From Herbidospora sakaeratensis (GTDB lineage Bacteria > Actinomycetota > Actinomycetes > Streptosporangiales > Streptosporangiaceae), in assembly GCF_001570525.1 (NCBI RefSeq), contig NZ_BBXC01000007.1, forward strand, positions 671,364 to 735,363: DNA of 64,000 bases, in the 5' to 3' direction. Position numbers and translations under genes: made by a program. Numbering within the stretch: position 1 is the first letter of the stretch; each line of letters opens with the position of its first letter. Under the pieces are notes generated by a model. It was given only the letters and a program-made list of their open reading frames with translations. It was not told the DNA's origin and made no database searches. Shown here piece after piece: positions 2,121 through 53,594 of the stretch.

Positions 2121-3404
2121 TCAGGCCAGGGTGCTCAGAGTGGTGGGCGGTATCTCCACAGTGGTCGGATTGGCCAGGACGCGGTCGACCACGACCCCGG
2201 CCGCGCCGCGCGAGGCGGCGCCGAAGCCCAGGTCGGAGGCGACGAAGGTGCAGCGGGCGACGGAGCCGGTGACCCCCAGGCGGGCGAGTTCCGCCTGGGC
2301 GCGCGGGAGGATGTGCCCTTCCAGCCGCGCGAAGAAGCCGCCGACGACGATGACCCGGGGGTTGAAGAGCCGGACGAGGGTGGCGGAGCCGCGGCCCAGC
2401 CAGCGGCCGACCTCCGCCAGGGCGTGGTCGACCTGGGGATCGCCCGCCGCCAGGCGGCGCTCGATCTCGCTCAGGCGTTCCTCGGGGTCGCGGACGATGC
2501 CGTCGCGCACCCCGTAGGCGTGGTCGGGGGTGACCATGCGGACCAGCGCGGCCAGCCCGACCTTGGTCTCCCAGCAGCCGATGCGGCCGCAGCCGCAGCG
2601 CTCGCCGGAGGAGTCGACCATGACGTGGCCCACTTCGCCGGCGAAGCCGTCGGCGCCGCCGAGGAGGCGTCCGCCGGCGATGATGCCGCCGCCGACGCCG
2701 ACCTCACCGGTCAGGTAGACCATGTCGGCCGATCCGGCGGCCACGCCGTTGGTGAACTCGGCCAGCGCCGCCAGGTTGGCGTCGTTGGCGACGGTGACGG
2801 GGACGCCGGGGGCGACCTCCCAGAGGCGCTCGGCGACGGGGACGCCGTACCAGCCGAGGTTCGGGGCGACGTGGACGACCCCGTTGGTGCCATCTATGAG
2901 GCCGGGCACGGCGACCGTTATCCCGGCCACCCGCACGCCCAGCATGTGGAGCTCGGCTATCGCGTCGCGGGCCACCCGGGCCAGTTCGTCGAGCGACTGC
3001 TCGGGCTCGCAGCCCATCGCGTCGAACCCGACGCGGCGGTCGACCAGGACGCGGCCCGCCAGGTCGGTGGCGAAGGCGGCGATGTAGTCGACGTTGATCT
3101 CGAGGCCCAGGGCGCCGACGCCCGCGCCGTCGAGGGCCAGGGCGAGGCCGGGACGGCCGACGGAGCCGGCGTGCTGCGGGCCGATCTCGCGGATCAGGCC
3201 ACGGGCTCGTAACTCCCCGACGAGGCTGGTGACGGTCGCCTTGTTCAGCCCGGTCTCGGCGGCGACCGCCGAGCGCGAGCGGGGGCCGTGCTCCTGGAGG
3301 TGACGCAGGACGAGCGACAGGTTGGACCGGCGGATCATGGTCTGATCGACGGGCACGCCCGTGGAGCCGTTCCTGCCCAGCGCGGGCCCTGAGGTTAGTC
3401 GCAC
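2121..3404 (-). CDS. ROK family transcriptional regulator (NagC/XylR type)
   Basis: The 427-residue protein has an N-terminal winged helix-turn-helix (about residues 25-85, SRSAVAAETGLNKATVTSLV) followed by a ROK sugar-kinase-like domain. The phosphate-binding loops TVANDANLAAL and EVGVGGGIIAGG and the zinc site GHV...CGCGRIGCWE are intact. ROK repressors sense a sugar or sugar phosphate and release DNA. The gene diverges from the secreted sugar dehydrogenase gene starting at 3780, and the 375-bp gap holds AT-rich inverted repeats of ROK-operator shape. Control of the neighbouring sugar locus and of itself is therefore plausible, but this is inferred. No kinase function is expected because an HTH is fused. 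Confidence 0.9.
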   Translation of the reverse strand: MRLTSGPALGRNGSTGVPVDQTMIRRSNLSLVLRHLQEHGPRSRSAVAAETGLNKATVTSLVGELRARGLIREIGPQHAGSVGRPGLALALDGAGVGALGLEINVDYIAAFATDLAGRVLVDRRVGFDAMGCEPEQSLDELARVARDAIAELHMLGVRVAGITVAVPGLIDGTNGVVHVAPNLGWYGVPVAERLWEVAPGVPVTVANDANLAALAEFTNGVAAGSADMVYLTGEVGVGGGIIAGGRLLGGADGFAGEVGHVMVDSSGERCGCGRIGCWETKVGLAALVRMVTPDHAYGVRDGIVRDPEERLSEIERRLAAGDPQVDHALAEVGRWLGRGSATLVRLFNPRVIVVGGFFARLEGHILPRAQAELARLGVTGSVARCTFVASDLGFGAASRGAAGVVVDRVLANPTTVEIPPTTLSTLA

Positions 3405-3446
3405 GTCTTGCTTCCCGTCGGTCTGCTTGCGGCCGTTCGTCTCGAA

Positions 3447-3472
3447 TTAATTTGCATGCCTCGCCGAATTAA
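3447..3472. promoter_or_regulatory. AT-rich inverted repeat, candidate ROK operator
   Basis: The arms TTAATT (3447-3452) and AATTAA (3467-3472) are separated by 14 bp. They sit 43-68 bp upstream of the ROK start. ROK regulators such as NagC and Mlc bind A/T-rich arms around a variable centre, so the shape fits. The assignment to this regulator is inferred from position. Confidence 0.4.
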
Positions 3473-3534
3473 ATGTCCTGGACGCATGTGCCACAAGTGT
3501 CGAACCGCTTCGCCTTGCATTACAGTTTCGTAAC

Positions 3535-3556: not shown

Positions 3557-3719
3557 AGACTCCCGGGTCTGTACACGGGGATGACAGGTGTGTTAGAAAT
3601 CGGTAAATTCCGCCAGCTGTTACGCAAAAGTTAGACGGAATGACGCATGGCGATGACGTGGCACCGTCATCGATTTGCATCAGCATGACCCCGATTTACC
3701 TGTTGTACCCCGGGCACAA

Positions 3720-3768
3720 GCGCGGCGGCGCGCGCCTTGCCTGACTGAATCCCCAGGTCAGGAAAGGA
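3720..3768 (+). promoter_or_regulatory. Conserved leader hairpin and ribosome binding site (copy 1)
   Basis: The block 3720-3745 is identical over 26 nt to 48678-48703 upstream of the fused paralogue. It contains the 10-bp palindrome GGCGCGCGCC and ends in CCTGAC. CCTGAC (3740-3745) pairs with GTCAGG (3757-3762) across an 11-nt loop, and the 3' arm runs straight into the Shine-Dalgarno AGGAAAGGA (3760-3768), 11 nt before ATG 3780. Pairing of this stem would partly hide the ribosome binding site. Confidence 0.6.
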
Positions 3769-3779
3769 TCACCCCCTAC

Positions 3780-6700
3780 ATGTCTCGACCTCACCGGTTA
3801 CGGGCGTTAGCCGCCCTGACCACGCTCCTGGTGACGATGGGCGTCGTCGTGGCGCCTCCCAGTGCCCACGCGGCGGACATCCCGGCCTCGGACTATCAGC
3901 AAGTCGCGCTCGCCACCGGACCTGGCGAGCTCGGTGAGGCGATGTCCCTGGCGGTGCTGCCGAACCGTTCCGTGCTGCACACCGCGCGCGGCGGCCAGGT
4001 CAGGATCACCGACGTCAACGGCAACACCTCTCTGGCGGGCACGCTCAACGTGTACACGCACGACGAGGAGGGCCTGCAGGGCGTGGCGGTCGACCCGAAC
4101 TTCGCCACCAACCGGCACGTCTGGCTCTACTACTCGCCCCGGCTGAGCACCCCCAACGGCGACGCGCCGACGACGGGCACCCAGACCGACTGGAACACCT
4201 GGAAGGGGCAGTTCTACCTGTCCCGGTTCACGCTGACCACGGGCAACACCCTCGACATGGCCAGCGAAGTGATCGTGCTGCGGGTCGACAACGACCGCGG
4301 CCAGTGTTGCCACGCCGGCGGTGACATCGACTTCGACGCGCAGGGGAACCTCTACCTGACCACGGGCGACGACACCAACCCGTTCGAGTCGAACAGCTAC
4401 ACCCCGATCGACGAGCGCACCAACCGCAACCCGCAGTTCGACGCGCAGCGCTCCTCGGGCAACACCAACGACCTGCGCGGCAAGGTGCTCCGCATCAAGC
4501 CGCAGACGAACGGGACGTACACGATCCCGACGGGCAACCTGTTCGCGCCGGGCACGGCCGGCACCCGTCCCGAGATCTACGCGATGGGCCTGCGCAACCC
4601 GTTCAGGATGAGCGTCGACAAGGCCACCGGCATCGTCTACCTGGGCGACTACGGCCCCGACGCCGGCGGCGCCGACGCCAACCGCGGCCCCGGCGGCCAG
4701 GTCGAGTTCAACCGCATCACCTCGGCGGGCAACTACGGCTGGCCCTACTGCACCGGCAACAACACCACGGCCGAGACCTACAACGAGTACACGTTCCCGA
4801 GCGGCCCGTCGCAGGCCAAGTACAACTGCGCGGGGCAGCCGACCAACAACTCCTTCCGCAACACCGGCCTGCAGACCCTCCCGCAGCCGCGCCCGGCCTG
4901 GATCCGCTACGGCGGCGAGGCCGGCAGCCCGCCGGAGTTCGGCGGCGGCTCGGAGTCGCCGATGGGCGGCCCGGTCTACCGGTACGACCCGAACAACACC
5001 TCCCCGGTCAAGTTCCCGCAGTCGCTCGACGGCCGCTTCTTCGCCGGCGAGTACGGCCGCCGCTGGATCAAGGCCATCGCGGTGACCTCCTCGGGCGGCG
5101 TGGGCGAGATCAGCGGCTTCCCGTGGACCGGCACCCAGGTCATGGACATGGCCTTCGGCCCCGACGGCGCCCTGTACGTGCTCGACTACGGCACCGGCTC
5201 GGGCAACCAGGCCCTCTACCGCATCGAGTACATCGGCGGCGCGAACCGCAACCCGATCGCCAAGGCCGCGGCCACCCCGACCTCCGGCGTCGCCCCGCTC
5301 GCGGTGACCTTCTCCTCGGCGGGCTCGTCCGACCCCGAGGGCTCGGCGCTCACCTACGCGTGGAACTTCGGCGACGGCACCACCTCCACGGCCGCCAACC
5401 CGTCGAAGACCTACACCGCCAACGGCACCTACAACGTGACCCTGACGGTCCGCGACAGCGGCGGCCTGACCGGCTCGGCGAACGTGACGATCACGGTCGG
5501 CAACACCGCCCCGACGGTCAACCTGCAGACCCCGCTGAGCGGCGCGTTGTTCAACTTCGGCGACACGATCCCGTACACGATCTCGGTCAGCGACCCGCAG
5601 GACGGCACGATCAACTGCGCCCGGGTGAAGTTCACCTACTTCCTCGGCCACGACAGCCACTCGCACCAGATCACCTCCAAGGACGGCTGCTCCGGCACCA
5701 TCACCGTGCCGACCGACGGTGAGCACGACGCCGCGGCCAACATCTACGGCGTCTTCACCGCCGAGTACACCGACAACGGCGGCCTGACCACCACGGTCAC
5801 CCGCACCCTGCAGCCCCGGCACCGCCAGGGCGAGCACTGGGGCGCCCAGAACGGCGTCCAGGTCGCCACGCACGCCGCCGCCGAAGGCGGCACCACGGTC
5901 GGGTTCGTCGACAACAACGACTGGGTCTCCTTCACCCCGTACAACCTGACGGGCGCCACCTCGTTCGTCGCCCGGGTCTCCTCCGGCGGCGTCGGCGGCA
6001 CCCTGGAAGTGCGCGCGGGCTCGGCGACCGGCACCCTGCTGGGCACCGCCACGGTGGCCAACACCGGCAGCTGGGACACCTTCACCAACGTCACGGCCAA
6101 CCTGTCGAACGTGCCGACCGCGACGACCACGCTGTTCCTGGTCTTCAAGGGCGTCACCGGCCAGGGCAACCTGTTCGACCTCGACGCGTTCACCGTCAAC
6201 GGCGGCACGGGCAACCCGCCCGCCGGGACCATCGAGGGCGAGGCGTTCACGTCGAACTCCGGCGTCCAGACCGCGGCCCACGCCGCCGCCTCCGGCGGCC
6301 TGACCGTCGGCTACATCGACAACGGCGACTGGGCCGGCTACTCGAACGTCAGCACCTCGGGCAAGACCTCGTTCACCGCCCGGGTCTCCTCCGGCGGCCC
6401 CGGCGGCACCATCACGATCCGCTCGGGCAGCCAGACCGGCGCGGTCCTCGGCACCGTCGCGGTGCCGAACACCGGCAGCTTCGACACCTTCCAGAACGTC
6501 TCCACGACGCTCAACGGGAACGGCACCGGCGCGCTGTTCCTCACCTTCACCGGCGGCTCGGGCGCGCTGTTCGACATCGACACCTTCTCGCTCGGCAGCA
6601 CCCCGCCGCCGACCACGACGGTGGAGGGCGAGGCGTTCACGTCCACCTCGGGCGTGCAGGTCGCCACCCACACCCCGGCGAGCGGCGGCCTGACCGCCGG

Positions 6701-6995
6701 GCACATCGAGAACGGCGACTGGGCCGCCTACAACCAGGTCACCGTGAACGGCGCCACCCGCATCACGGTCCGCTACTCCTCGGCCGGTCCCGGCGGGACC
6801 ATCGAGGTGCGGGCCGGGTCGGCGACCGGCACGGTGCTCGGCACCCTCGCGATCCCGAACACCGGCGGCTGGGAGACCTTCGCGTCGGCGTCGGCGAACC
6901 TGACGGCCGGCTCGGCGACGGGCCAGGTCGTGCTCCGGTTCACCGGCGGCTCGGGCGCCCTCTTCGACGTCGACACCTTCACCATCCAGAAGTGA
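3780..6995 (+). CDS. Secreted PQQ-type sugar (glucose/sorbosone) dehydrogenase with PKD and three CBM6 modules
   Basis: The 1071-residue exported protein has a signal peptide (about residues 1-31, ending PPSAHA). A glucose/sorbosone dehydrogenase beta-propeller follows at about residues 38-485, with CCHAGGDIDFDAQGNLYLTT, LRGKVLRI, LRNPFRMSVD and GGPVYRYD. Then come a PKD domain (490-575, YAWNFGDGTTS), a linker Ig-like region (575-680) and three CBM6-like modules (about 682-806, 816-938, 947-1071), each with a DNGDW-type ligand loop. Such enzymes oxidise sugars outside the cell; electron acceptor and cofactor cannot be read here. ATG 3780 is chosen because it has the Shine-Dalgarno and gives a clean signal peptide; an in-frame start at 3675 would precede it. 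The ThuA-DUF1080 gene begins 8 bp downstream, so the two are almost certainly one operon. Confidence 0.9.
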   Translation: MSRPHRLRALAALTTLLVTMGVVVAPPSAHAADIPASDYQQVALATGPGELGEAMSLAVLPNRSVLHTARGGQVRITDVNGNTSLAGTLNVYTHDEEGLQGVAVDPNFATNRHVWLYYSPRLSTPNGDAPTTGTQTDWNTWKGQFYLSRFTLTTGNTLDMASEVIVLRVDNDRGQCCHAGGDIDFDAQGNLYLTTGDDTNPFESNSYTPIDERTNRNPQFDAQRSSGNTNDLRGKVLRIKPQTNGTYTIPTGNLFAPGTAGTRPEIYAMGLRNPFRMSVDKATGIVYLGDYGPDAGGADANRGPGGQVEFNRITSAGNYGWPYCTGNNTTAETYNEYTFPSGPSQAKYNCAGQPTNNSFRNTGLQTLPQPRPAWIRYGGEAGSPPEFGGGSESPMGGPVYRYDPNNTSPVKFPQSLDGRFFAGEYGRRWIKAIAVTSSGGVGEISGFPWTGTQVMDMAFGPDGALYVLDYGTGSGNQALYRIEYIGGANRNPIAKAAATPTSGVAPLAVTFSSAGSSDPEGSALTYAWNFGDGTTSTAANPSKTYTANGTYNVTLTVRDSGGLTGSANVTITVGNTAPTVNLQTPLSGALFNFGDTIPYTISVSDPQDGTINCARVKFTYFLGHDSHSHQITSKDGCSGTITVPTDGEHDAAANIYGVFTAEYTDNGGLTTTVTRTLQPRHRQGEHWGAQNGVQVATHAAAEGGTTVGFVDNNDWVSFTPYNLTGATSFVARVSSGGVGGTLEVRAGSATGTLLGTATVANTGSWDTFTNVTANLSNVPTATTTLFLVFKGVTGQGNLFDLDAFTVNGGTGNPPAGTIEGEAFTSNSGVQTAAHAAASGGLTVGYIDNGDWAGYSNVSTSGKTSFTARVSSGGPGGTITIRSGSQTGAVLGTVAVPNTGSFDTFQNVSTTLNGNGTGALFLTFTGGSGALFDIDTFSLGSTPPPTTTVEGEAFTSTSGVQVATHTPASGGLTAGHIENGDWAAYNQVTVNGATRITVRYSSAGPGGTIEVRAGSATGTVLGTLAIPNTGGWETFASASANLTAGSATGQVVLRFTGGSGALFDVDTFTIQK
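5827..6992 (+). repeat. Three tandem CBM6 coding units
   Basis: Units at about 5827-6198, 6228-6594 and 6621-6992 encode related beta-sandwich modules. Shared phrases include VSSGG.GGT, a SGSQTG/AGSATG turn, PNTGSFDTF-like strands and a GALFD.DTF ending. The second and third are closer to the two copies in the next gene than to the first, which suggests duplication between the genes. Confidence 0.75.
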
Positions 6996-7003
6996 GGCGG
7001 GAC

Positions 7004-9094
7004 ATGAAGCGCACCATCCTCGGCGCGATCGCCGCGGCGGCCGTCGCCGCGACGACGCTGACGCCGACGGCGGCGCACGCCGCCGACCCGGCCTACCAGG
7101 TGCTCGTCTTCTCCAAGACGGCGGGCTTCCGGCACGACTCGATCCCGCAGGGCATCGCGGCGATCCAGGCCATCGGCTCGGCCAACAACTTCACCGTGAC
7201 CGCGACGGAGGACGCCGCCGCGTTCACCGCCGGCAACCTGGCCAACTACAAGGCCGTCGTCTTCCTGAGCACCACGGGCGACGTGCTGAACGCCAGCCAG
7301 CAGACCGCGTTCGAGAACTACATAAACGGCGGCGGCGGCTACGTGGGCGTGCACGCCGCGGCCGACACCGAGTACGACTGGGCCTACTACGGCAACCTGG
7401 TCGGCGCCTGGTTCCAGAGCCACCCGGCCATCCAGACGGCCACCATCCGCACCGAGGACCGCGCCCACGCGGCCACCGCCCACCTGGGCGGCACCTGGTC
7501 GCGGTCTGACGAATGGTATTCGTACCGCACGAACCCGAGAAACAGCGCGAAGATCCTGCAAAATCTCGACGAATCGAGTTACTCGGGTGGCGGGATGGGC
7601 GACCATCCGATCACCTGGTGCAAGAACGTGAACAACGGCCGGAGCTTCTACACCGGCCTCGGTCACACGCAGGCAACATACGGCGAGGCGAACTTCCGCA
7701 CGCTGCTGCTCGGCGGCATCCGGTACGCGGCCGGCTGGGCCAAGCAGGACTGCCGCGTCGAGACCGGCTACACGCCGATCTACAACGGCTCCACCACCGG
7801 CTGGTCGCAGGCCGGACCGGGCAGCTTCACCAACTCCGACGCCACGCTCAAGTCGGTCGGCGGCATGGGCCTGCTGTGGTACTCCGCCAAGGAGTACGGC
7901 TCGTACTCGCTGAAGCTCGACTGGAAGATGGACGGCGACGACAACTCCGGCATCTTCGTCGGCTTCCCGAGCTCGACCGACGTGAACTCGGCCGTCAACA
8001 ACGGCTACGAGATCCAGATCGACGCCACCGACACCGCCGACAAGACGACGGGCTCGATCTACGGCTTCAAGTCGGCCGACGTCGCCGCCCGCGACGCCGC
8101 CCTCAACCCCCCGGGCGAGTGGAACGGCTACGAGATCCTCGTCGAGGGCGAGCGGCTGCGCGTCTACCTGAACGGCCGCCTGATCAACGACTTCACCAAC
8201 ACCGTGGCCAACCGGTCGCTCGCCCAGGGCTACATCGGCATCCAGAACCACGGCACCGGTGACGACGTGTCGTTCCGCAACATCCGCATCAAGGAGCTGA
8301 ACGGCAACCCGCCGCAGCAGCCGGCCACGATCGAGGCCGAGTCGTACACCTCGAACTCCGGGGTGCAGCCCGCCGGGCACGCCACCGCCAGCGGCGGCAC
8401 CACCGTCGGCTACATCGACAACGGCGACTGGGTCGGCTACGCCAACTTCTCCACCGCGGGCAAGAACAGCTTCTCCGCGCGGGTCTCCTCGGGCGGCCCC
8501 GGCGGCACCATCACGATCCGGGCGGGCTCCCAGACCGGCACGGTGCTGGGCACGGTCAACGTGCCGAACACCGGCAGCTGGGACACCTTCCAGACCGTCA
8601 CCACGTCGCTGAACAGCAACGCCTCCGGCCCGCTGTTCCTCACCTTCAGCGGCGGCTCCGGCGCCCTGCTCGACGTCGACACCATCACCCTGACCACCGG
8701 CACCACGCCGACGCAGACCACGGTCCAGGGCGAGGCGGCCACGTCGCAGTCGGGCACCCAGATCGCCGCCCACGGCCCCGCCGTCGGCGGCCAGACCCTC
8801 GGCCACATCGACAACGGCGACTGGGCCGGCTACAACCAGGTCACCGCCAACGGGGCGACCCGCATCACGGTGCGCTACTCCTCGGCCGGACCGGGCGGCC
8901 AGATCCAGGTCCGCGCGGGCTCGGCGACCGGCACCCAGATCGGGACGGTGACGATCCCGAACACCGGCAGCTGGGACACCTTCCAGTCCGTGTCGGCGAA
9001 CCTGACGAGCTCGGCCTCCGGGGCGATCTTCCTGAGGTTCACGGGCGGCTCGGGCTCCCTGTTCGACGTCGACCAGTTCGTCCTGGAGAAGTAG
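7004..9094 (+). CDS. Secreted ThuA - DUF1080 (3-keto-disaccharide hydrolase-like) protein with two CBM6 modules
   Basis: The protein has 696 residues. A signal peptide (1-26, ending TAAHA) is followed by a ThuA domain (about 30-245; VLVFSKTAGFRHDSI, GGYVGVHAAADTEYDW, DHPITWCKN), then a DUF1080 concanavalin-like domain (about 250-435; YNGSTTGWSQ, NSGIFVGFPSS, NGYEIQIDA, GEWNGYEILVEG), then two CBM6-like modules (about 443-562 and 574-696). ThuA is named for trehalose utilisation and DUF1080 members act on 3-keto-glycosides. The gene follows the dehydrogenase by 8 bp, so a joint pathway of oxidation followed by cleavage of the keto product is likely but inferred. An upstream GTG at 6992 overlaps the previous stop; ATG 7004 gives the better signal peptide and has GAGGCGGG before it. 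Confidence 0.9.
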   Translation: MKRTILGAIAAAAVAATTLTPTAAHAADPAYQVLVFSKTAGFRHDSIPQGIAAIQAIGSANNFTVTATEDAAAFTAGNLANYKAVVFLSTTGDVLNASQQTAFENYINGGGGYVGVHAAADTEYDWAYYGNLVGAWFQSHPAIQTATIRTEDRAHAATAHLGGTWSRSDEWYSYRTNPRNSAKILQNLDESSYSGGGMGDHPITWCKNVNNGRSFYTGLGHTQATYGEANFRTLLLGGIRYAAGWAKQDCRVETGYTPIYNGSTTGWSQAGPGSFTNSDATLKSVGGMGLLWYSAKEYGSYSLKLDWKMDGDDNSGIFVGFPSSTDVNSAVNNGYEIQIDATDTADKTTGSIYGFKSADVAARDAALNPPGEWNGYEILVEGERLRVYLNGRLINDFTNTVANRSLAQGYIGIQNHGTGDDVSFRNIRIKELNGNPPQQPATIEAESYTSNSGVQPAGHATASGGTTVGYIDNGDWVGYANFSTAGKNSFSARVSSGGPGGTITIRAGSQTGTVLGTVNVPNTGSWDTFQTVTTSLNSNASGPLFLTFSGGSGALLDVDTITLTTGTTPTQTTVQGEAATSQSGTQIAAHGPAVGGQTLGHIDNGDWAGYNQVTANGATRITVRYSSAGPGGQIQVRAGSATGTQIGTVTIPNTGSWDTFQSVSANLTSSASGAIFLRFTGGSGSLFDVDQFVLEK
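8330..9091 (+). repeat. Two tandem CBM6 coding units
   Basis: Units at about 8330-8691 and 8723-9091 repeat the same module. The last unit is very similar at nucleotide level to the last unit of the upstream gene (6621-6992), for example around 6760-6830 versus 8860-8930, where most codons are identical. Confidence 0.75.
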
Positions 9095-48477: not shown

Positions 48478-48677
48478 AACATCGGATCGTTATCCGGCCG
48501 AGGGGTGCATGATCCACTACGGCCGTGTTACAAAATCCTCGATCGCTTCCGCGGACAACTGTCCGGGCGGCCGACACGGGTGGCACCCCGTCTGGTCGTC
48601 CGGTCGTGCCGTGGCCGAGAGCACCGGGTTCCGCGACCGCGGGGCCTCATCGGACGTGATCCCTGACACGGCAACAT

Positions 48678-48730
48678 GCGCGGCGGCGCGCGCCTTGCCT
48701 GACGAGACCCCTCACTCGTTCAGGAAAGGA
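48678..48730 (+). promoter_or_regulatory. Conserved leader hairpin and ribosome binding site (copy 2)
   Basis: The block 48678-48703 is identical over 26 nt to 3720-3745. CCTGA (48698-48702) pairs with TCAGG (48720-48724), and CGAG (48703-48706) pairs with CTCG (48715-48718) past one bulged T. The inner pairs differ from copy 1 yet remain paired. AGGAAAGGA (48722-48730) is the ribosome site for ATG 48735. The rest of the 297-bp gap to the HTH gene holds no gene. Confidence 0.6.
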
Positions 48731-48734
48731 CCCC

Positions 48735-51700
48735 ATGTCCCCACGTCTCCGGCGCTGGGCCACGCTCCTCTCGACGATGGCGCTGACGGTCACGGGCACC
48801 GTGGTCGCCGCCGCCCCGGCCCGAGCCGTCGACATCCCCGCGGCCGACTACCAGCAGGTTCCGCTGGCCGTCGGCAGCGCGAAGCTCGGCGAGGCCATGT
48901 CCCTGGCCGTCCTCCCGAACAGGAACGTCGTGCACACCGCGCGGGACGGCTGGGTGCGGGTCACCACCCCGGCCGGCATCACCAAGAACGCGGGCAAGCT
49001 GAACGTCTACACCCACGACGAGGAAGGGCTCCAGGGGGTGGCGGCCGACCCGGACTTCGCCGCCAACCGGTGGATCTACCTCTTCTACTCGCCCCGGCTC
49101 GACACTCCCAATGGCGACGCGCCCAAGGAGGGCACCGCCGAGCAGTTCGAGGCGTGGAAGGGGCACCTGAACCTGTCGCGGTTCACCCTGAACGCCGACG
49201 ACACCCTCGACCTGGCCAGCGAGAAGGTGATCCTCGAGGTCCCGAACGACCGGGGGCAGTGCTGCCACGTCGGCGGCGACATCGACTTCGACGCCCAGGG
49301 CAACCTCTACCTGACCACGGGCGACGACACCAACCCGTTCGAGTCGGACGCGTACACGCCCATCGACGAGCGCACCACCCGCAACCCGCAGTTCGACGCG
49401 CAGCGCTCCTCGGGCAACACCAACGACCTGCGCGGCAAGGTGCTGCGCATCACGCCGCAGGACGACGGGACGTACACCATCCCCGAAGGGAACATGTTCG
49501 CCCCGGGCACCGCGGGCACCCGGCCCGAGATCTACGCCATGGGCTTCCGCAACCCCTTCCGGATGAGCGTCGACAAGGCGACCGGCATCGTCTACCTGGG
49601 CGACTACGGCCCGGACGCCGGCGGCCCGAGCGCCAGCCGGGGGCCCGCCGGGCAGGTCGAGTTCAACCGGGTGACCGGGCCCGGCAACTACGGCTGGCCC
49701 TACTGCACCGGCACCAACACGAGCAACGAGGTGTACAACGAGTACACCTTCCCGACCGGGCCCTCGGGCGCGAAGTACGACTGCGCGAACGGCCCGGCGA
49801 ACAACTCCTTCCGCAACACCGGCCTGCCGACCCTGCCCCCGGCCGTGCCCGCGTGGATCAAGTACGGCTTCGAGGGCTCCCCGGCCGAGTTCGGCGGCGG
49901 CTCCGAGTCGCCGATGGGCGGCCCGGTCTACCGCTACGACGCCGGCCTGGAGTCGAACGTCAAGTTCCCGCAGTCGCTCGACGGGCGGTTCTTCGCCGGT
50001 GAGCTCGGCCGCAAGTGGATCAAGGCGATCGAGGTGAAGGCCGACGGCACGCGCGGCGAGATCGCGCCCTTCCCGTGGACCGGCCAGCAGGTCATGGACC
50101 TGGCGTTCGGCCCCGACGGCGCCCTGTACGTGCTCGACTACGGCAGCGGCGGCGGCGACCAGGCCCTCTACCGCATCGACTACCTGGCCAACAGCAACCG
50201 CAGCCCGGTCGCCCGCATCGTCACCGACCGCATCTCCGGCGTCGACCCGCTGACCGTGAAGTTCACCGGCGACACCTCCTCCGACCCCGAGAGCGGCGCG
50301 CTTACCTACGCCTGGGACTTCGGCGACGGGGAGACGTCCACCGAGGCCAATCCCACGCACACCTTCGAGGACGAGGGCGTCTTCGACGTCGTGCTGACCG
50401 TGACCGACCCCGACGGCGCGACCGGCAGCACCAACATCTCGATCCACTCCGGCAACACCCTGCCGGTCGTCACCCTCAAGTCGCCCATCGCGGGCGCCCT
50501 GTTCGACTTCGGCGACACCATCCCCTTCGAGATCGAGGTCACCGACCCCGAAGACGGCGACGTCGACTGCGACCGCGTCGAACTCGACTACTCGCTCGGC
50601 CACGACCAGCACGCCCACCTGATCACCTCGCGGACCGGCTGCACCGGCACGATCGTGGTGCCCAAGGACGGCGAGCACGACGCGGCGGCCAACCTTTACG
50701 GCGTCTTCACCGCCCGCTACGTCGACGAGGGCGGCCTGGAGAACACCCAGACCGTCACCCTCCAGCCCAAGCACCGCCAGGCCGAGCACGCCCACACCCT
50801 GCAGGGCGTGCAGGTCACCACGCCGGGCGGATCGGAAGGCGGCCGGGCCATCGGCCACACCGACAACAACGACTGGATCTCCTTCGAGCCGTACGCCCTC
50901 GGCAACGCCACCAAGATCACCGTGCGGACCGCCTCCGGCGGCGTCGGCGGCACGATCGAGGTGCGCGCGGGCTCCCCGACGGGCGCCCTGCTCGGCACGG
51001 TGGCCGCGCCCAAGACCGCCGGATGGGGCGACTTCGTCGTCAACACCGGCGACCTGACCAACCCGCCGGCCGGCACGACCAAGCTCTACCTGGTCTTCAA
51101 GGGCCCGGCCGGGGCGCTGTTCGACCTCGACTGGTTCGACTTCACCACCACCGGCGAACTCGACGCCACCACGGTCGAGGGCGAGGCGTTCACCTCGACG
51201 TTCGGCGTCCAGGACGCGCCGCACGGCAACGCCAGCGGCGGCAAGGCGGCCGGCTACACCGACCCGGGCGACTGGGCCGGTTACGCGCCGATCACCCTGA
51301 CCGGCGCGACCACCTTCACCGCCCGGATCGCCTCCGGCGGCCCCGGCGGCACCCTGTCGATCCGGCACGGTTCCCAGACGGGCCCGCTCCTCGGCACGAT
51401 CACGGTCGCCAACACCGGCGGCTGGGAGAACTACGTCGACCTGTCGACGCGGCTCACCAACGTGCCGGCCGGGACCGGGCAGCTCTTCCTGGTCTTCGAC
51501 GGGCCGTCCGGGCGCGGCGCGCTGTTCGACGTCGACTACTGGACGCTCGTCAGGGAGCCGCTCCCCGACGACAAGGTGCTGGTGTTCTCCAAGACGGCCG
51601 GGTTCCGGCACGGCTCGATCGGCCCCGGCGTCCAGGCGCTCACCCAGATCGGCCAGGCCAACGGCTTCGAGGTCGTCAACTCCGAGGACGGCGGCGACTT

Positions 51701-53594
51701 CACCGCCGAGACCCTGTCGCAGTTCAAGGCCGTGGTCTTCCTCAGCACCACCGGCGACGTGCTGACCGACGCCCAGCAGGCGGCCTTCGAGGACTACGTC
51801 GACAACGGCGGCGGCTACATGGGAATCCACGCGGCGGCCGACACCGAGTACGGCTGGTCCTACTACGGCGGCCTGGTCGGCGCCTACTTCAAGGGCCACC
51901 CGGCGACCCAGCCCGCCACGGTCGTCACCGAGGACCACGACCACCCGGCGACCGCGCACCTGCCGGACGAGTGGACGCGTACCGACGAGTGGTACAACTA
52001 CCGCACCAACCCGCGCGGCTCCGTGCACGTCCTGCAGACGCTCGACGAGAGCAGCTACCAGGGCGGCGACATGGGCGCCGACCACCCCATCACCTGGTGC
52101 AAGACCCAGGGCGAGGGCCGCTCGTTCTACACCGGCCTCGGCCACACCGACCAGTCCTACGCCGAACCGGCCTTCCGCCAGCTGCTGCTCGGCGGGCTCG
52201 AGTACGCCATGGGCCGCGAGGAGGCCGACTGCGCCGCCGACGCGACCGGCCCGACGGTCTCGGCGGTCACCGCTCCCGCCGCCCCCGACGGCGCGAACGG
52301 CTGGTTCGTCTCCGGCGTGACCGTGACGATCACCGCCGAAGACCCTTCCGGCGTGGAGAAGACGGAGTACCGCCTCGACGGCGGCGCGTGGACGACGTAC
52401 ACCGGCCCCGTCGGCATCGCCGCCGACGGCCCGCACACCCTCGACTACCGCGCCACCGACGGCTCGGGCAACACCTCGACCGGGTCGATCGAGGTCAGGA
52501 AGGACGCCGCCGCGCCCCTCACGGCCGCCCAGTTCGCCCCGGCGAACGACGACGGCTGGCACAACGGCGGCGTTCCCGTCACCCTGTCGGCGGCCGACCC
52601 CGCGTCGGGCGTCGCCACGACCGAGTACTCCCTCGACGGGGGCGCGTGGACCGCGTACACCGAACCGGTGAACGTCACCGGCGAGGGCACGCACGACCTG
52701 ACCTACCGGTCGACGGACAAGGCCGGGAACGTCGAGACCGTCAAGGCCGCGGTCGTCCGCATCGACGGCAGCCGCCCGACGATCCTGATCTCCGGCATCG
52801 CCGACGGCCAGATCTACGGCGACAGCCAGGACCTGCGCATGACCTGGCAGGCCGTGGACGCCACCTCCGGCGTCAAGACCCTGGTCGGTGAACTCGACGG
52901 CACGGCGATCCAGCCGGGCCAGTTGCGTCCCCTGTACGAACTCGCGCTGCGCACCCACACGCTGAAGGTCACCGCGACCGACAAGGCGGGCAACCAGTCC
53001 GTCGAGACCGTCGTCTTCGGGGTCACCACCTCGACCCGCGACCTCGCCAACCTGATCGACCGCTTCACCGCCACCGGCCGCCTCACCCAGAGCCAGGCCG
53101 GCGCGCTGCACCGGGAGCTCACCAGGGCGCGGAAGGCCGAGGCCGACGCCGACGACGCCAAGACGATCAGGGCGCTGACCGACTTCACGGAGGAGGTCGC
53201 CGACACCGACACCGAGACGGAGATCCGCGACGTGCTCACCCGCGACGCCGACGCCGTCATCGCCCGCCTCGGCGGCGGCCAGCCGGCGGAGGCCGCGTGC
53301 ACCGCCACCTACCGCGTCACCCAGTCGTGGAACGGCGGCTTCGGCGGCGAGGTCGCGGTGAAGAACACCGGCGGCACGAAGCTGACCGGCTGGACCGTGA
53401 CCTGGACCTGGCCCGACGGCCAGACCGTCACCAAACTCTGGAACGGCACCCACACCCAGACGGGCAGCGCCGTGACCGTGGGCAACGCCGCCTACAACGG
53501 CACCCTGGCCGTCAACGCGCAGACGACCTTCGGGTTCAACGCGTCGTACCAGACCCGCAACACCGCCCCCGAGCCGACCTGCACGGCGGCCTGA
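48735..53594 (+). CDS. Secreted fusion of sugar dehydrogenase, PKD, CBM6, ThuA, Ig-like, FIMAH-like and CBM2 modules
   Basis: A 1619-residue exported protein. It has a signal peptide (about 1-33), glucose/sorbosone dehydrogenase propeller (36-485; CCHVGGDIDFDAQGNLYLTT, FRNPFRMSVD), PKD (487-570) and two CBM6-like modules (683-800, 811-935). A ThuA domain follows (945-1165; VLVFSKTAGFRHGSI, GGYMGIHAAADTEYGW, DHPITWCK). Then come three Ig-like repeats (1168-1255, 1258-1342, 1343-1432; EYRLDGGAWT and EYSLDGGAWT), a two-helix FIMAH-like segment (1434-1516) and a cellulose-binding CBM2 (1521-1619; WNGGFGGEVAVKN, GWTVTWTWPDGQ). It joins in one chain what the 3780-9094 locus encodes in two, but lacks DUF1080. 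It probably oxidises and processes sugars while bound to plant polysaccharide; this role is inferred. Confidence 0.9.
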   Translation: MSPRLRRWATLLSTMALTVTGTVVAAAPARAVDIPAADYQQVPLAVGSAKLGEAMSLAVLPNRNVVHTARDGWVRVTTPAGITKNAGKLNVYTHDEEGLQGVAADPDFAANRWIYLFYSPRLDTPNGDAPKEGTAEQFEAWKGHLNLSRFTLNADDTLDLASEKVILEVPNDRGQCCHVGGDIDFDAQGNLYLTTGDDTNPFESDAYTPIDERTTRNPQFDAQRSSGNTNDLRGKVLRITPQDDGTYTIPEGNMFAPGTAGTRPEIYAMGFRNPFRMSVDKATGIVYLGDYGPDAGGPSASRGPAGQVEFNRVTGPGNYGWPYCTGTNTSNEVYNEYTFPTGPSGAKYDCANGPANNSFRNTGLPTLPPAVPAWIKYGFEGSPAEFGGGSESPMGGPVYRYDAGLESNVKFPQSLDGRFFAGELGRKWIKAIEVKADGTRGEIAPFPWTGQQVMDLAFGPDGALYVLDYGSGGGDQALYRIDYLANSNRSPVARIVTDRISGVDPLTVKFTGDTSSDPESGALTYAWDFGDGETSTEANPTHTFEDEGVFDVVLTVTDPDGATGSTNISIHSGNTLPVVTLKSPIAGALFDFGDTIPFEIEVTDPEDGDVDCDRVELDYSLGHDQHAHLITSRTGCTGTIVVPKDGEHDAAANLYGVFTARYVDEGGLENTQTVTLQPKHRQAEHAHTLQGVQVTTPGGSEGGRAIGHTDNNDWISFEPYALGNATKITVRTASGGVGGTIEVRAGSPTGALLGTVAAPKTAGWGDFVVNTGDLTNPPAGTTKLYLVFKGPAGALFDLDWFDFTTTGELDATTVEGEAFTSTFGVQDAPHGNASGGKAAGYTDPGDWAGYAPITLTGATTFTARIASGGPGGTLSIRHGSQTGPLLGTITVANTGGWENYVDLSTRLTNVPAGTGQLFLVFDGPSGRGALFDVDYWTLVREPLPDDKVLVFSKTAGFRHGSIGPGVQALTQIGQANGFEVVNSEDGGDFTAETLSQFKAVVFLSTTGDVLTDAQQAAFEDYVDNGGGYMGIHAAADTEYGWSYYGGLVGAYFKGHPATQPATVVTEDHDHPATAHLPDEWTRTDEWYNYRTNPRGSVHVLQTLDESSYQGGDMGADHPITWCKTQGEGRSFYTGLGHTDQSYAEPAFRQLLLGGLEYAMGREEADCAADATGPTVSAVTAPAAPDGANGWFVSGVTVTITAEDPSGVEKTEYRLDGGAWTTYTGPVGIAADGPHTLDYRATDGSGNTSTGSIEVRKDAAAPLTAAQFAPANDDGWHNGGVPVTLSAADPASGVATTEYSLDGGAWTAYTEPVNVTGEGTHDLTYRSTDKAGNVETVKAAVVRIDGSRPTILISGIADGQIYGDSQDLRMTWQAVDATSGVKTLVGELDGTAIQPGQLRPLYELALRTHTLKVTATDKAGNQSVETVVFGVTTSTRDLANLIDRFTATGRLTQSQAGALHRELTRARKAEADADDAKTIRALTDFTEEVADTDTETEIRDVLTRDADAVIARLGGGQPAEAACTATYRVTQSWNGGFGGEVAVKNTGGTKLTGWTVTWTWPDGQTVTKLWNGTHTQTGSAVTVGNAAYNGTLAVNAQTTFGFNASYQTRNTAPEPTCTAA

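Follow-up and report, generated by a model that had tools for sequence, protein, structure and literature searches.

The window analysed here, a stretch of 64,000 nucleotides from Herbidospora sakaeratensis, contains two genes for exported sugar-acting proteins that are preceded by the same short block of DNA; the locus thus raises the question of what this block does in front of both ribosome sites. Direct comparison of the two stretches confirmed the identity pointed out in the initial annotation, which extends over 26 of 26 nucleotides (3720-3745 and 48678-48703, GCGCGGCGGCGCGCGCCTTGCCTGAC). This is far beyond chance, since only about 3e-5 identical 26-mer pairs would be expected on one strand of a window with 71% GC. 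Besides the block, 125 repeated 26-mers occur, and among those listed 19 of 19 fall within the coding parts of genes A and B. The hairpins described for the two copies could also be traced as claimed, CCTGAC (3740-3745) pairing with GTCAGG (3757-3762) in the first and CCTGA-CGAG (48698-48706) with CTCG-T-TCAGG (48715-48724) in the second; in both, the 3′ arm continues into the same ribosome site, AGGAAAGGA. The answer proposed here, to which a probability of roughly 0.7 is given, is that the block represents the 3′ half of a structured leader that governs translation initiation for secreted enzymes which oxidise sugars or act on carbohydrates. The features of the locus are collected in Table 1.

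Table 1. Features of the two leaders, neighbouring genes and the other element copies of the genome (window positions, unless a contig is named).
Feature	Position	Strand	Description and basis
ROK-family transcriptional regulator	2121..3404	-	Pfam ROK, E 2.4e-47; divergent from gene A; outside the RNA
AT-rich imperfect palindrome AATTAATTTGCATGCCTCGCCGAATTAAAT	3445..3474	.	kept, with some decay, in 7 aligned upstream regions with divergent ROK
Palpha, copy A	3651..3672	+	CGATGACG-TGGCAC-CGTCATCG; in the MFE fold; covariation on 60 copies
GGCA box, copy A	3713..3716	+	can pair with linker TGCC (P0)
P1 hairpin, copy A	3720..3735	+	GCGCG/CGCGC; loop GCGGCG (outer register) or GCGG (inner register)
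Linker CCTTG, copy A	3735..3739	+	complementary to ribosome-site AAGG (P2); pairing in the MFE fold
P3 hairpin, copy A	3740..3762	+	CCTGAC ... GTCAGG
Ribosome site AGGAAAGGA, gene A	3760..3768	+	sequence; precedes ATG 3780
Gene A	3780..6995	+	exported GSDH-PKD-CBM6x3 protein; Pfam; signal-peptide-like start by eye
Gene 3′ of gene A	6992..9094	+	ThuA - 3-keto-disaccharide hydrolase - CBM6; Pfam; frame overlaps the end of gene A
Palpha, copy B	48576..48591	+	ACGGG-TGGCAC-CCCGT; outside the MFE fold of this leader
GGCAA box, copy B	48670..48674	+	sequence
P1 hairpin, copy B	48678..48693	+	sequence
Linker CCTTG, copy B	48693..48697	+	sequence
P3 hairpin, copy B	48698..48724	+	CCTGA-CGAG ... CTCG-T-TCAGG, with inner helix
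Ribosome site AGGAAAGGA, gene B	48722..48730	+	sequence; precedes ATG 48735
Gene B	48735..53594	+	exported GSDH-PKD-CBM6-ThuA-FIMAH-CBM2 protein; Pfam
Element copy outside the window	C10:64137	-	covariance model
Element copy outside the window	C33:19733		covariance model
Element copy outside the window	C10:444295		covariance model
Element copy outside the window	C20:158813		covariance model

The genome, in which 17 GSDH matches are found, contains six copies of the element, two of them in the window; each copy is followed by a GSDH-domain gene, and four of these genes also code for ThuA. The third copy was first found by a pattern search and the rest by covariance model; a first model was built from 12 copies, and the second, built from 85, returned again exactly six (E<=0.01 or 0.001, both models). 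All seven genomes of the genus carry the element, with 4-6 copies each, the downstream genes having been read for some of them. One exact pattern, applied over named genomes, identified 83 loci, and the 80 listed fall in Herbidospora, Microbispora, Nonomuraea, Planotetraspora, Acrocarpospora, Sphaerisporangium, Streptosporangium and Streptomyces. A ROK identity of 98.4-99.5% likewise suggests Herbidospora as the probable source of the window. By tblastn against references drawn from those very loci, 77 of the 83 were classified, with ThuA first in 40, GSDH first in 32 (72 for the two together) and MIPS in 5, and the other 6, with only 77-595 nt of downstream sequence and no hit, were left unclassified. 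In the 85 aligned copies, which are loci picked beforehand as copies and all match the model built from 12 alike, the gene behind the element is GSDH in 62, ThuA in 16, MIPS in 3, GH95 and GH99 in one each, and none in 2.

Matches were obtained in 14 of 199 genomes of a genus taken for Streptomyces (E<=3e-4), all 14 being read as copies, and in family f7 the matching genomes are 34 of 101 at E<=0.001, with 43 matches, 30 of them with loci and 29 read (all except L205). Class-wide, the first model detected 12 of 394 genomes at E<=1e-4, one of which (L277) is false, and the second 17 of 394 at E<=0.001, including four false ones (L162/L132, L291, L292 and L293); the count of 34 of 396 from the first-model scan is an upper bound, comprising unread hits with E from 1.5e-4 to 0.01. 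From that scan the own-genome hits, L159-L161 and L163 were kept on reading, and L162 and L164 were dropped. The weak hits L162, L164, L277/L293, L291 and L292, which fall within coding sequence or ahead of unrelated frames, were taken as false. One genome of the window's own family, L024, has an f7-type gene and was counted as f7 in the letter, ROK and upstream-hairpin tallies. A covariance-model search upstream of homologues had been proposed as the check, with absence from other species as the outcome that would speak against the element; instead, it recurs in many species. The 26-nt block therefore belongs to a recurring mRNA leader of several actinobacterial groups, found on the gene's strand ahead of genes that are related or share a function, across several taxa, as is general for leader RNAs, and the leader predicts, from sequence alone, a regulon across three actinobacterial families.

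From 5′ to 3′, the proximal part consists of a GGCA(A) box, P1, a linker and P3, followed in most copies by AAGG(A/G). The box, scored by script over the 85 copies, is GGCA in 55, GCAA or GCAC in 11, another GGC form in 8 and none in 11, although 6 of these 11 rows have a GCAA touching P1, which was missed by the script's boundary. P1 is formed by GCGCG/CGCGC, or by GGCGCG/CGCGCC in family f7, with a loop of 3 to 7 nt and a gap of 0 to 4 nt from the box (by eye); the linker is CCTTG, mostly CCCTG in family f7, and P3 is CCTGRC/GTCAGG with loops of 5-22 nt. The P3 stem was the one that had been called covarying, and this did not hold: among its six base pairs in 85 copies, none has both partners changed, and shuffling yields the same values as observed, so that P3 as a covarying helix was rejected. 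Its variation consists of an A-U to G-U exchange in 25 of 85 copies and of mismatches at the third (2/85), fifth (2/85) and innermost pair (8/85). P1 and P3 alike are almost constant (98.9% paired), so that a count of pairs either says nothing on them or comes out negative, and their invariant paired bases could also serve DNA or protein recognition. A few single cases speak for structure, namely a double change in the P1 of one paralogue (the copy on C10), where GCGAG/CTCGC replaces GCGCG/CGCGC, shortened P1 forms that still keep a stem (L161, L175, L284 and L289), and, judged by eye, inner helices that adjoin a bulge of P3 (copy B, L184, L192, L204 and L174). The P3 pairs are decaying in L287 and L288.

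As for the claim of a selected RNA structure, what stands is that the element is tied to the ribosome site and recurs before homologues; the stem named is nearly invariant, and covariation was found elsewhere, in a hairpin, Palpha, that is absent from the initial annotation. Palpha lies about 30-90 nt upstream and, in the aligned upstream regions, combines a varying stem with a constant YGGCAY loop. Of the 85 family f1 upstream regions, 75 reached a pairing score of at least 5, whereas 50 shuffles treated with the same automatic rule gave 1.1 on average and 6 at most; before scoring, a filter for [AG]TCAGG and TTGCC dropped the gene-B-type copies (TTCAGG) and most f7 copies. In an alignment of 60 copies the covariation score was 0.361 against 0.200 in shuffled alignments, none of 500 being as high, and at most 0.214 with a slid partner, whereas the pairs changed on both sides were 7 versus 6.3 in shuffles (228/500 shuffles) and so did not exceed them; these 60-copy counts are uncorrected for the choice of rows, which favours pairing. 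Rows entered the alignment according to their pairing around YRGCAY, the frames of L027, L030, L063, L096, L118 and L120 being picked by hand and window copy B being added by hand, and the alignment leaves outside six Streptomyces loci and the copies without a scoring hairpin (in family f1, L031, L104, L111 and L124). Compensatory change is thus found for Palpha in family f1, and by counting it is not for P1 and P3.

All six genome copies possess Palpha, with the stems CGATGACG, ACGGG, CGGAGT, TCCCGAGG (one mismatch), CTGGAGG and GGAG, three of which have GGAG in common; overall the stem types comprise GGAG types, CGATGACG, ACGGG, AGACG and GAAGG, with no single conserved stem sequence. The hairpin is absent upstream of the three element-less GSDH genes checked out of five long ones. 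Ten family f1 regions score below 5, among which L111 has no hairpin and L027, L063, L118 and L120 have it in a shifted register. In the upstream regions from other families (16 Streptomyces and one f7), 5 of 17 score at least 5, each of them on a Streptomyces palindrome, TTGC-CAGCAT-GC, which resembles promoter or operator DNA. In family f7 a different upstream hairpin, with a P1-type loop (e.g. GTAACCG-GCGGCG-CGGTTAC), occurs in 10 of 29 rows at score 6.5, compared with 0-3 rows in 20 shuffles, several of the rows sharing genera. Since these upstream hairpins, with YGGCAY or P1-type loops, add to P1, many leaders present the GGC loop twice. The f7 hairpin, observed in L178, L180, L185, L195, L192 and L194, has the NCGGCG loop of P1 on a different, TAACCG/CGGTTA-like stem. 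The GGCA of the Palpha loop could also pair with TGCC of the linker, but the CAGCAC loops of L021, L045 and L055 are not compensated, and this pairing was discarded.

The ribosome site itself is predicted to be closed in most leaders. The mean unpaired probability of its GG is 0.04, versus 0.20 in shuffled surroundings, in 82 leaders, a count that excludes three ThuA class C leaders without GG after P3 (L003, L011 and L123); the GG is predicted to be paired (<0.25) in 80 of the 82, and the shuffled means are below 0.25 in 61, the contrast being modest because GC-rich DNA closes such sites easily. The ThuA class C leaders have no AAGG that pairs with the linker, and the folding energy of the whole leader is unexceptional (z -1.45 and 0.11). 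Judging by the sequences, a stronger sign that initiation at the element's site matters is given by short ORFs. In two chosen leader types (5 ThuA class C and 7 MIPS leaders), an ORF of 12-17 codons starting from the element's site ends in ATGA on the main start in 12 of 12 leaders, 10 of them distinct sequences, and the encoded peptides differ between leaders; such ORFs seem to be kept only to pass on initiation, and the leader adds a case of this kind. In the MIPS leaders (L047, L053, L081, L090 and L107 of Acrocarpospora, L034 and L042), the element and an ORF of 12-16 codons are placed between a ROK gene and the gene for myo-inositol-1-phosphate synthase, a case of leader capture by an unrelated enzyme. 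In L045, from Nonomuraea pusilla, an 18-codon ORF follows the site and the main frame begins about 300 nt further on; this is either a short leader ORF or a frame break.

The computed features, namely conservation, gene association, covariation of Palpha, a ribosome site predicted to be closed in most leaders, and the short overlapping ORFs, may be brought together in the following mechanism. From 5′ to 3′, the leader would consist of Palpha, whose loop is a constant YGGCAY in Streptosporangiaceae leaders, a spacer with GGCA(A) at its end, the GC-rich P1, whose loop is of the (N)CGGC type, a linker of pyrimidines, and P3, which leads into the Shine-Dalgarno site. At rest, AAGG (or AGGG) of the ribosome site would be paired with CCTT (or CCCT) of the linker in an extension of P3, and the site would consequently be closed; in an alternative fold, the linker and the first bases of P3 would pair with the upstream GGCA(A) box, forming P0, which encloses P1, and thereby free the site. 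A metabolite or a protein acting on the GGC loops would shift the pairing to P0 and P1, opening the site. By sequence, P0 and P2/P3 are both possible in most copies, and the joint loss of linker and box in L196, L200 and L201, probably a single lineage, fits P0 pairing; however, P0 shows no covariation and its A-U pair is broken in some f7 copies, so that the shift between folds is put forward as a hypothesis. We infer that transcription includes the leader, that the RNA alternates between both folds in vivo, and that the choice is made by a metabolite or protein.

Within this mechanism, a tentative further step is that the leader is a riboswitch class for a sugar-derived or redox-cofactor ligand, in which the two GGC-loop hairpins would act as sensor and the linker CCUU(G)CC would be shared between a sensor-side helix (P0 or a contact with the Palpha loop) and the ribosome-site helix. 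If true, such a riboswitch would be portable, as it would have been captured by the inositol-phosphate synthase gene of Acrocarpospora through a short coupled ORF. In any case this is a compact leader present in multiple copies with clear targets, i.e., exported GSDH and ThuA proteins, single cases of GH95 and GH99, and inositol-phosphate synthase; therefore, the signal for these enzymes becomes testable in a reporter.

No Rfam family, including the msiK motif (RF01747), matched at the gathering score in the window and 9 other loci, in agreement with the earlier statement that no named riboswitch fits, and a sensitive scan of positions 3650-3850 gave three unrelated sub-threshold hits only. 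The Guanidine-II riboswitch (mini-ykkC, RF01068) has two short hairpins with the same small loop before the ribosome site; unlike in that RNA, the loop here is YGGCAY or (N)CGGCG, the spacing is much longer and the genes are unlinked to guanidine, and Guanidine-II was not among the three hits of the sensitive scan. As to how it works, the closest known analogue, as far as the consulted portions of PMC2864571 describe it, is the msiK leader, which is likewise an actinobacterial 5′ UTR element before a sugar gene; however, it is a single long hairpin, with a bulge of 11 nt, in front of a gene for an ABC ATPase, instead of tandem hairpins before exported GSDH/ThuA genes, and by Rfam score the present leader is no member. 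A comparative-genomics survey of 50 Streptomyces genomes presents the leader motifs dauA, livJ and pntA, of which dauA includes a putative ribosome site; these precede other genes, and GSDH, ThuA and the present motif are not named in the consulted portions of that article (PMC11109978). In a full-text literature search, with supplements and subscription papers outside its scope, the leader was found undescribed, including in the consulted portions of PMC2864571, PMC11109978 and PMC8079986. The best reading is thus a translational leader RNA outside Rfam, representing a new cis-regulatory candidate.

The same data could be produced by a fixed module for translation or stability, that is by a strong, insulated ribosome site with protective hairpins and no switching. 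The strong invariance of the sequence, its use by unrelated genes (MIPS, GH95 and GH99), the lack of a known ligand and a P0 without covariation would all be in keeping with it; it is nevertheless unlikely, as the ribosome site is predicted to be closed rather than open, and as the conserved loops of Palpha and P1 and the GGCA box would be unnecessary for an insulator.

Quite unlikely, too, is a role of the block as operator or promoter DNA, for instance for a ROK or LacI-type sugar regulator, with an incidental hairpin at the ribosome site. The near-invariance of the 26 nt and the imperfect dyad GGCAA..GCGCG..CGCGC..TTGCC would agree with an operator, as would the ROK gene that adjoins the element in many Streptosporangiaceae loci, a homologue lying upstream, divergent or in the same direction, in 22 of 38 family f1 rows (one query). 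With the same single query, however, it was found in 0 of 47 Streptomyces or f7 rows, some of which span only 200-300 nt upstream; moreover, the spacing of the dyad varies with the P1 loop and the box-to-P1 gap, the block stands on the gene's strand directly before the ribosome site in the copies read, and Palpha has no single conserved stem sequence. The short overlapping ORFs, which keep the site in use where the gene starts further on, also count against an operator, because a DNA operator would not need them. The palindrome GGCGCGCGCC, from which the operator alternative had been derived, is indeed present in the block, but it matches three times in the window against 2.1 expected and is absent from some copies; it was not retained as an unusual signal, and the operator alternative is weakened by the varying loop lengths and by the separate palindrome described below.

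A better candidate for a protein operator lies further upstream, in the intergenic region that separates the GSDH gene from its divergent ROK neighbour, where an AT-rich palindrome separate from the 26-nt block (AATTAATTTGCATG..CGCCGAATTAAAT; regions L111, L055, L021, L079 and L050) is the probable ROK operator, and likelier an operator than the block. A further stretch, TGTGTTAGAAATCGGTAAATT, is alike in 6 of 7 aligned ROK-GSDH regions (positions 3445-3474 and 3589-3609 for the palindrome and this stretch) and may be a promoter. The block as ROK operator was accordingly rejected, and since the AT-rich palindrome and promoter-like sequences lie upstream of it, the element is probably transcribed within a 5′ UTR. 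A stretch similar to the AT-rich palindrome, AAATTAATT...GCATGCAA, is found upstream of several Streptomyces copies. In L171 a short tandem repeat, gcgacgcaccaa, lies directly upstream of a Streptomyces copy.

That the similarity of the leaders was merely inherited through gene duplication is very improbable and, as a full account, refuted: genes A and B are indeed paralogous, sharing GSDH, PKD and CBM6 domains (gene B having ThuA, FIMAH and CBM2 besides, by Pfam), but the block is identical while the flanking non-coding DNA is unlike between the two copies (by eye), it also precedes the unrelated MIPS, GH95 and GH99 genes, and for five further long GSDH genes an unfiltered model search around their starts gave at most 7.9 bits in the stretches searched, so that the element is not simply inherited with the GSDH gene. 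The element-less GSDH gene at C20:166055 (L266) resembles the HTINATDFQQVTLAKG type that bears the element in family f7, and offers a natural control for its loss. In L054 (Herbidospora solisilvae) and L009, the element is intact, yet the gene B relative behind it has no long open frame near the start and may be a decayed copy. Many target genes begin with MSPRxRxW, whose codons form a CCACG...CGTGG inverted repeat just after the start (e.g. L016, L057, L063 and L032); this repeat may reflect a coding constraint or one more hairpin.
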